Below are positions 25,234-26,725 of a stretch of 39,047 nt of DNA, in pieces. Under the pieces are notes generated by a model. That model saw only the letters and a program-made list of their open reading frames with translations, ran no database searches and was not told the DNA's origin. Numbering within the stretch: the stretch's first letter is position 1; every line of letters starts with the position of its first letter. Source of the stretch: Bacillota bacterium (GTDB lineage Bacteria > Bacillota > Clostridia > Peptostreptococcales > Acidaminobacteraceae); assembly GCA_030529605.1 (NCBI GenBank), contig JAUMWO010000004.1:1-39047 (forward strand), written 5' to 3'. Made by a program: the position numbers and the translations under genes.

Positions 25234-25596
25234 TCATTTGTGGTAATTGCTTCCTCCCAGGATCCGAAACGCCCGGTAGATCTGCTCGATCAGCAGAACC
25301 GGAAGCAGTTGCGGGTCAATGTCGCAGTCGATGAGGTTGAGTTGCATCTCCGCATCCGGATTGGGCTCATCGACATAAAACATGAGGCGCGACTTTCCTT
25401 GAAGCGCCAAATCCTGCAGGCGCCTTGCAAACTCGACCGAGTCGATCGCTTCCCCGTAGCGAGAAATCGAAATCGAATAATCAGGCTGGAGCCGATCGAC
25501 AAATTTGACTTCCCGGGACAAGCGCTTCCGATACTCTTCGAATGCGCTCAAATAATTGGGATTCTTTATCTTTCGAGTTTGAAGACAGATTTTCAT
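25234..25596 (-). CDS. RlmH-like SPOUT protein A: tail kept, SAM-binding loop lost
   Basis: RlmH methylates N3 of pseudouridine 1915 in helix 69 of 23S rRNA. This 120-aa protein is about 40 residues shorter than ordinary RlmH. Its C-terminus (LLIEQIYRAFRILGGSNYHK) keeps the family's conserved end, IEQxYRAFxIxxGxxYHK. The SAM-binding GGSxG loop is gone: where a normal copy has FVIGGSNG, this one has MFYVDEPNPD, and the segment leading to the tail is shortened. The N-terminal VGKLK motif is also replaced (TRKIKN). So it probably cannot bind SAM alone. It heads the DUF5317-secA-prfB operon. No Shine-Dalgarno is seen; the promoter would start RNA at or beside the ATG. Confidence 0.85.
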   Translation of the reverse strand: MKICLQTRKIKNPNYLSAFEEYRKRLSREVKFVDRLQPDYSISISRYGEAIDSVEFARRLQDLALQGKSRLMFYVDEPNPDAEMQLNLIDCDIDPQLLPVLLIEQIYRAFRILGGSNYHK

Positions 25597-25602
25597 AACT
25601 AT

Positions 25603-25631
25603 AGTATATCGATTGGAACGGTCAAATTCAA
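25603..25631 (-). promoter_or_regulatory. Sigma-A promoter giving a leaderless rlmHA-secA transcript
   Basis: Minus-strand TTGAAT, 17 nt, TATACT. Only six bases separate the -10 box from the ATG at 25596, so transcription should begin at or next to the start codon. A terminator lies just upstream, so this is probably the main promoter of the rlmHA-DUF5317-secA-prfB-tex operon. Confidence 0.7.
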
Positions 25632-25646
25632 TCATGCATCCCGATC

Positions 25647-25677
25647 AAAAAAGCCCGACAGTCAGTGACTGTCGGGC
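25647..25677 (-). terminator. Intrinsic terminator after the zinc-ribbon gene
   Basis: On the minus strand GCCCGACAGTCA pairs with TGACTGTCGGGC and is followed by TTTTTT. The stem is perfect and very short-looped. It separates the DUF362-rlmHB-XRE-zinc ribbon transcript from the rlmHA-secA operon. Confidence 0.9.
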
Positions 25678-25702
25678 CATCGGAGCGGTTCATTTTTTTC
25701 GG

Positions 25703-25867
25703 CTACTGCTCCGATTCACAAACTTCCAATGTTCGGATAAAATTCAAGCACTCGGGACAAATGGCTTTGCTTCGGAACGGTATCAGCCCGGAACTCGAGC
25801 TGCAGATTCCGCACCGTTGCTCGTAGTACACTTCTCTGACACCCATTTCAACAACAATCTCCGTCAT
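25703..25867 (-). CDS. 54-aa zinc-ribbon protein, possibly Gin/CsfB-like
   Basis: This short gene starts at an ATG with GGGAGG 3 nt upstream (25867) and encodes 54 residues. Two CxxC pairs (CGIC at 19-22 and CPEC at 37-40), 14 residues apart, form one zinc ribbon. The pattern CxIC-N14-CxxC followed by a short helix resembles Gin (CsfB), the sporulation-linked inhibitor of sigma-G, whose pairs are 15 residues apart. The match rests on spacing and size only, so I regard it as a suggestion; any small zinc-ribbon adaptor is possible. It follows the XRE regulator by 28 nt and is closed by a strong terminator. Confidence 0.7.
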   Translation of the reverse strand: MTEIVVEMGVREVYYEQRCGICSSSSGLIPFRSKAICPECLNFIRTLEVCESEQ

Positions 25868-25895
25868 GTTCCCTCCCAGTTATTATTGAACGACT

Positions 25896-26240
25896 CTATC
25901 GGTCGATCTTACCCCTACGTGTCCGTTCGATAATTTCCAAAAGCAATTGTACGGTTCCCCTGTCCACAAGCGGAAGGCTGTCGATCACCTTTTGACGAAG
26001 AGCGGTCTCGTCCTCTTCGTATGGCACTTCGGTCTCGTGAATCCGAATCAGTTCGATCAACTCGTCTCGACTCAGAATTTCCCGATCGGCGATGCGGGTA
26101 ATGAATCGTGTGGACGGTGTGCGTACTCCGCGCTCGTAACGATTGTAGGTCGAGGGATGTACGCCCAACATCGCAGCGAACTCCTTTTGATCGAGCCCCA
26201 ACCGATTGCGCAAAGAACGCAACTTTTCACTGAAATCCAT
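25896..26240 (-). CDS. XRE-family helix-turn-helix regulator
   Basis: The 114-aa protein has a Cro/C1-type DNA-binding domain in its first 55 residues (LRSLRNRLGLDQKEFAAMLG, then VHPSTYNRYERGVRTPS) and a helical acidic C-terminal half (residues 60-114) that may dimerise or sense a ligand. The ATG at 26240 follows AGGTGG by 8 nt; a GTG four codons earlier is less likely. It lies 77 nt after rlmH-like B and 28 nt before the zinc-ribbon gene. The intergenic stretch before it holds a perfect inverted repeat, a possible operator. Its targets cannot be told from the sequence. Confidence 0.88.
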   Translation of the reverse strand: MDFSEKLRSLRNRLGLDQKEFAAMLGVHPSTYNRYERGVRTPSTRFITRIADREILSRDELIELIRIHETEVPYEEDETALRQKVIDSLPLVDRGTVQLLLEIIERTRRGKIDR

Positions 26241-26301
26241 TTCGTCTACCACCTATATTGTTGCCAAATATTAACATATGGCGGTAGTGCATTTCAGAAC
26301 G

Positions 26302-26318
26302 ATTGCCGCTTTGGCAAT
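26302..26318. repeat. Inverted repeat ATTGCC-N5-GGCAAT at the rlmHB stop
   Basis: Six-base arms around GCTTT (plus strand), beginning at the stop codon of rlmH-like B. No T-run follows on either strand, so it is not a convincing terminator. It could be an XRE operator. It sits where the lost C-terminal codons of rlmH would be expected. Confidence 0.5.
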
Positions 26319-26725
26319 TACAATCTGCGTATTATCATATCAAGGGCGACGATGCGTACCAATTGGTGCGGTAGAGTCATTGGAGTCAGAGCGATGGAGG
26401 CGTCGGCGCGGCGGCGGATGGAATCATCGACTCCATTGCTTCCGCCGATCACGATGGTGTTGACGCGATCCGAAGAAAGACGAAAAAAACGATCCGCCGG
26501 TTTCCCGGCGAGATCGAACAAAATCACATGATCGGTGGGCGCGACTCTCTGCAGGACTCCCTCGGACTCGACACGAATCGCACGAGCGATGTCGCGATCC
26601 GGCTCATCTTCGATTTCGATGACTTCGATCCTGCAACGCTTCCGAAGCGTCTGCAGCATCTCCTGCGCTTGGTCGCGCCAGTAGCTTTCCTTCAGTTTCC
26701 CGACGACCAGAAGTTTAATCCACAT
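26318..26725 (-). CDS. RlmH-like SPOUT protein B: SAM loop kept, C-terminal tail missing
   Basis: This 135-aa protein reads as ordinary RlmH for most of its length. It has the N-terminal MWIKLLVVGKLKESYW, the strand-loop IVIGGSNGVDDSIRRRAD that binds SAM in the trefoil knot, and LTPMTLPHQLVRI. It then departs: where RlmH continues LIEQxYRAFxIxxGxxYHK, this protein reads ALDMIIRRL and stops, leaving out about the last ten residues, including the essential-looking YHK. No frame downstream restores them. The remainder is well conserved and shows no internal stops, so it does not look like a decaying gene. It overlaps the DUF362 gene by 11 nt and is probably translated with it. Confidence 0.88.
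   Translation of the reverse strand: MWIKLLVVGKLKESYWRDQAQEMLQTLRKRCRIEVIEIEDEPDRDIARAIRVESEGVLQRVAPTDHVILFDLAGKPADRFFRLSSDRVNTIVIGGSNGVDDSIRRRADASIALTPMTLPHQLVRIVALDMIIRRL

Follow-up and report, generated by a model that had tools for sequence, protein, structure and literature searches.

Complementary partial RlmH proteins in Bacillota: a putative heterodimeric 23S rRNA methyltransferase and its links to serine-recombinase elements in rlmH

Introduction

At least 36 Bacillota genomes, representing 26 genera and at least 16 families, were found to encode two partial RlmH-family proteins, here called A and B, and no full-length RlmH. We consider it likely that A arrived as a mobile donor of the tail, rescuing an RlmH broken by an insertion, and that A and B together form an obligate heterodimer that methylates pseudouridine 1915 of 23S rRNA. 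If so, this would be, to our knowledge, the first heterodimeric RlmH; no published account of a split RlmH was found in the openly licensed literature.

RlmH (YbeA/OrfX) is the homodimeric SPOUT methyltransferase responsible for m3-pseudouridine 1915 in 23S rRNA (Koh et al. 2017, PMC5430550). Its active site is composite, with the SAM site contributed by one monomer and the C-terminal tail by the other, and E138, Y152, H153 and R154 are essential, the E138A/Q, Y152F, H153F and R154A variants being inactive (Koh et al. 2017, PMC5430550).

Two partial RlmH genes in one locus

The window, which is the whole stretch of 39,047 bp that was analysed, encodes two partial RlmH-family open reading frames on the minus strand, and an ORF check found both at the positions given by the original prediction. 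Protein B (26318–26725, minus strand, 135 aa) is an RlmH with the SAM pocket and without the catalytic C-terminal tail. It contains the motifs VGKLKE, IGGSNG and PHQ and ends in ...VRIVALDMIIRRL. Protein A (25234–25596, minus strand; 120 aa from a start at 25596, or 133 aa from the alternative start at 25635) is an RlmH-fold protein that retains the tail, with the motifs EYRKRL, EQIYRAF and YHK and the C-terminal end LIEQIYRAFRILGGSNYHK, and that lacks H129, with neither GGSxG nor PH present. The claims that B keeps the SAM loop without the conserved tail and that A keeps the YHK tail without GGSxG were thus both borne out. So was that of a terminator between the genes, as a strong intrinsic terminator-like hairpin of 12 pairs followed by a T run (25652–25678, minus strand) separates B from A upstream of A.

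A promoter-like site, TTGACC-16-TATAGT (25598–25625, minus strand; a consensus match only), is located just upstream of A, and a gene for an Xre/RstR-like HTH protein (25896–26252, minus strand) lies between B and A. A small ORF (25703–25867, minus strand) encodes a zinc-ribbon-like protein of 54 aa in which two CxxC motifs were recognised by eye. The order B-HTH-A-DUF5317-SecA is common to the window and a locus in another genus (L034), where the Xre/RstR-like gene also sits between B and A, and the arrangement is chromosomal. The B gene of the window is outside the usual rlmH neighbourhood, and no recombinase was found within the window in a motif scan.

Both proteins matched the Pfam family PF02590 (cut-off 27 bits), B with 88 bits over profile positions 1–143 of 154 and A with 55 bits over positions 67–154, and both fell far under the NCBIfam equivalog cut-offs. 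The AlphaFold single-chain models were confident (mean pLDDT 94.0 for A and 91.1 for B), and their best PDB matches were RlmH structures, with a TM-score by query against 1TO0 of 0.82 for A and 0.89 for B. Since both models match 1TO0, 4FAK, 1NS5 and 5TWJ, each protein is predicted to have the RlmH/SPOUT fold.

Active-site residues are divided between A and B

Within the window, the GGxxG SAM loop and H129 are present in B and not in A, and the catalytic Y152-H153-R/K154 tail with R142 is present in A and not in B, so that the pair has both sets and neither protein has both by itself. A residue table in E. coli numbering was compiled for 37 full-length RlmH, 36 A and 33 B proteins, leaving out frameshifted copies and those at contig edges. 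All 37 full-length proteins have G103, G107, H129, E138, Y141, R142, Y152 and H153. Among the A proteins, Y141, R142, Y152, H153 and K154 were kept in 36/36, E138 in 35/36 and E22 in 34/36; the GGxxG loop and H129 were lost, and the position of G107 was a gap in 33 of the 36 and a residue other than G in the rest. In B, G103, G107 and H129 were kept in 33/33, Y152 was found in none of the 33 and R142 in 11. Judged from these alignments, the split follows the two halves of the RlmH composite active site, and the predicted division of SAM binding and tail between two proteins agrees with the site described by Koh et al. (2017, PMC5430550).

Distribution of the pair

A PF02590 profile search covered approximately 1,160 genomes at the family, order, class and phylum levels, and most of them encode one full-length RlmH. 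The genomes with A and B and no full-length RlmH include that of the window and five others in its family (g1, three in g13, g18 and g19), 14 in the rest of its order (f7, f9 and f10), 10 in the rest of its class (f28, f29, f30, f37, f45, three in f53, f64 and f83), Youngiibacter fragilis, and five in other classes of the phylum (f95, f114, f129 and two in f151). Named cases among the genomes searched are Lutispora saccharofermentans, Y. fragilis, Paenibacillus alkaliterrae and a Candidatus Epulonipiscium MAG. Several pair genomes are 95–100% complete and two are single contigs (G581 and G1150). In one of the order-level genomes (G057) the pair is interrupted by frameshifts. Full-length genes that were frameshifted or split between contigs (G038, G105, G229 and G506) were excluded from the pair count.

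In the window's own assembly (1.65 Mb, 190 contigs), A and B were the only PF02590 matches and no third RlmH was found; because the assembly is 71% complete, a full-length RlmH may lie in the missing part. Near-complete relatives that share the pair yielded none, and the expectation that no normal RlmH would be found elsewhere held both for the window's genome and for all 36 pair genomes. The two types also co-occurred as anticipated, with all 33 of the compared B proteins coming from genomes with an A partner. The only cases of A without B observed were P. alkaliterrae, where RlmH is intact, and incomplete assemblies or fragments. In one genome (G648), RlmH is truncated before PH, with no A detected. 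When plasmid, phage and viral collections were searched for the A type, the matches listed were all approximately 450–480 nt, which is the length of a full RlmH.

RlmH was missing altogether from 38 of the 381 good genomes in the class sample, which indicates that some lineages can do without the modification. In the window's family, 12 of 41 genomes, several of them more than 90% complete, had no RlmH above threshold, and RlmH looks dispensable in these lineages. Two further genomes (L109 and L110 in G707 and G636; f38 g314) have a single full-length RlmH with the tail YDK or YNK instead of YHK, so that the essential H153 is replaced, and no partner gene was found in them.

A is one lineage and B arose repeatedly

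In a tree of 96 proteins, every A fell on one side of a branch (support 98), a grouping that could be helped by the shared loss of the same segments, given the long branches and short alignment. In the same tree B needed five changes, in agreement with an earlier tree, and B as a single clade was rejected (AU p 0.017). The B of Lutispora was placed among the intact RlmH proteins of its genus-mates (support 99), and the g13 B proteins adjoin the intact RlmH of their own family. These trees indicate that A is a single lineage and that B arose repeatedly from resident RlmH genes. Many B loci outside the window's family are in the usual rlmH neighbourhood, with genes for HtrA, an MBL-fold YycJ-like protein and a MurA-like protein (named by eye), which argues for B as the resident gene and A as the added one. 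A and B are often adjacent, in tandem in g13, f53, f64 and f129 and convergent in f7, f10, f83, f95 and f151.

For close genome pairs with moderate dS, dN/dS (NG86) was 0.10–0.21 for A and 0.08–0.23 for B (A/B 0.102/0.082 in g118, 0.211/0.234 in g27 and 0.112/0.157 in g209). The value for A between Lutispora and another genome, G462, was 0.109 (NG86). Such values indicate that both genes are under purifying selection, and with ratios this low neither is drifting as a pseudogene.

An element in rlmH of Lutispora and related cases

In L. saccharofermentans, an approximately 16 kb serine-recombinase element sits in rlmH, and the resident gene ends ...RINMGER*. The gene for a 704 aa large serine recombinase, with Resolvase, Recombinase and zinc-ribbon domains, starts 92 bp downstream of rlmH and is followed by a type I restriction system, a tyrosine recombinase and an RNase H-like protein, with A near the far end. 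At attR, about 16 kb away, the severed end of rlmH is still readable as VIHGEPYHK*. The sequence GAAC is common to attL and attR, which flank the element and carry an 18 bp inverted repeat, TTACCGAATACATGACTC; the junctions look as expected where integration has split the attachment site of a serine integrase. Two genus-mates (G409 and G780) have an intact rlmH ending GEPYHK*, and no A was found in either of them and no recombinase by rlmH within the short flanks read.

A third genus-mate (G438) has an intact rlmH and no detectable A. Here a sister element of approximately 14 kb (L265/L266, G438:C17:49097-63800) rebuilds the rlmH tail in cis as GEPYHR*, and the displaced GEPYHK* is 14 kb away. 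The element encodes a 697 aa serine recombinase, a DNA methyltransferase and a Vsr-like protein (by eye), and has accessory genes in common with the Lutispora element. It looks like an SCC-type element outside the staphylococci and enterococci.

In G462, which belongs to another family, rlmH is cut at the same site (...NNEP*) and is followed by nearly the same element end, so that here, as in Lutispora, the insertion did not leave the gene intact. The A proteins of Lutispora and G462 are 93% identical and their B proteins 62% identical with saturated dS, which indicates transfer of A between families, on the element or together with it. The two genes of G462 are 14 kb apart, with A amid metabolic genes and IS copies.

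In P. alkaliterrae (L227 and L228), A coexists with an intact RlmH, so that a tail donor is not needed there and the presence of A need not always mean rescue. The A gene is beside type I restriction-like genes on an 11 kb contig, and on a separate contig the intact rlmH is followed by two large serine recombinases; no repeats common to the rlmH end and the A contig were found. A motif scan around the other pairs detected recombinases only by the P. alkaliterrae rlmH, and none near most pairs. Two other genomes (L304 and L305 in G869 and G884) have an intact rlmH accompanied, 2.5–7 kb away, by a further rlmH 3' end or a degraded copy, possible scars of other rlmH-targeting elements.

The link between A and an element, as read from gene content and junctions, is direct in Lutispora, strong in G462 and suggestive in P. 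alkaliterrae. For the remaining genomes it would be by analogy, and since there is no recombinase near the window's pair, we infer an element origin for that pair in the same way.

Discussion

The division of residues leads us to predict a physical complex of A and B with methylation activity. In it, B would bind SAM and A would contribute the catalytic tail (E138, R142, Y152, H153 and K154), and neither an A-A nor a B-B homodimer could build a complete site. Horizontal transfer would have spread the A lineage, carried in part at least by SCC-like serine-recombinase elements that integrate at the 3' end of rlmH and cut the YHK tail off the resident RlmH. After insertion, A would supply the tail in trans, the alternative in G438 being a new end in cis. 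The element may later decay while A stays. With A present, B would no longer need a tail nor A a SAM site, and mutual loss would lock in an obligate pair. The window would represent a late state, in which any element of its own has been lost.

A heterodimer would also result if rlmH had been duplicated locally several times and the copies had lost opposite halves by drift, with no mobile element involved. The frequent tandem or convergent adjacency of the pairs, and the lack of a recombinase near most of them, would fit such a history. It sits poorly with a single A lineage set against several origins of B, with the transfer of A between the families of Lutispora and G462, and with the position of A inside the element in Lutispora, and we regard it as unlikely. 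That one gene has been split in two by an assembly error or frameshift is true of some split matches elsewhere (G038, G229 and G506). For the counted pairs this was refuted, as A and B differ in sequence while covering largely overlapping parts of the fold, and as named isolates and single-contig genomes (G581 and G1150) have the pair too; the chance that it explains them is negligible.

A and B might instead be decaying, or be outside RlmH's job altogether, with RlmH dispensable and A a regulator or inhibitor of RlmH and not a catalytic partner. The family genomes that lack RlmH and the intact RlmH beside A in P. alkaliterrae can be read in this way. However, dN/dS is low in both genes, the catalytic tail residues, for which an inhibitor has no need, are invariant in A, and the SAM residues are invariant in B, which makes a non-catalytic role quite improbable, more so than local duplication.

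We therefore return to A as a tail donor and partner of B. The pair shares its fold and motifs with the RlmH homodimer (PMC5430550) and differs in that the roles are on two complementary genes, neither protein having the full set of active-site residues. SCCmec and the Enterococcus cassette chromosome have large serine recombinases, insert in the 3' region of rlmH, and have dyad-symmetric att sites and variable cargo (PMC6222049). The Lutispora element resembles them in recombinase type, rlmH 3' site, att dyad symmetry and variable cargo, which includes restriction-modification genes. Unlike SCC, it leaves RlmH without a tail and carries a pseudo-RlmH that has one; the sister element in G438 follows SCC in restoring the tail. 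We know of no SCC or Enterococcus cassette chromosome element described as severing the RlmH tail while carrying a tailed pseudo-RlmH.

In Trm6-Trm61, METTL3-METTL14 and Tad2-Tad3, a paralogue that lacks the cofactor or catalytic function is a needed partner. A and B differ from these systems in that each copy has lost the half kept by the other, repeatedly, and in that, in at least one genus, the loss followed the insertion of a mobile element.

The genomes offer a rare visible path from homodimer to putative obligate heterodimer, from an intact RlmH through loss of the tail by insertion (Lutispora) and a recent loss of YHK only (G462) to mutual degeneration (the window). More broadly, it is somewhat probable that a class of integrative elements disrupts an rRNA methyltransferase on insertion and brings along a degenerate paralogue, which restores the function in trans as a heterodimer, making loss of the element costly and leaving an obligate heterodimeric RlmH repeatedly across the Bacillota. 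If the heterodimer is real, it would be evidence from nature that one of the two active sites in the homodimer is enough. The pair further suggests a new means by which a mobile element could make up for the damage done to its target gene, by supplying a partner subunit in trans as against a repaired end in cis.
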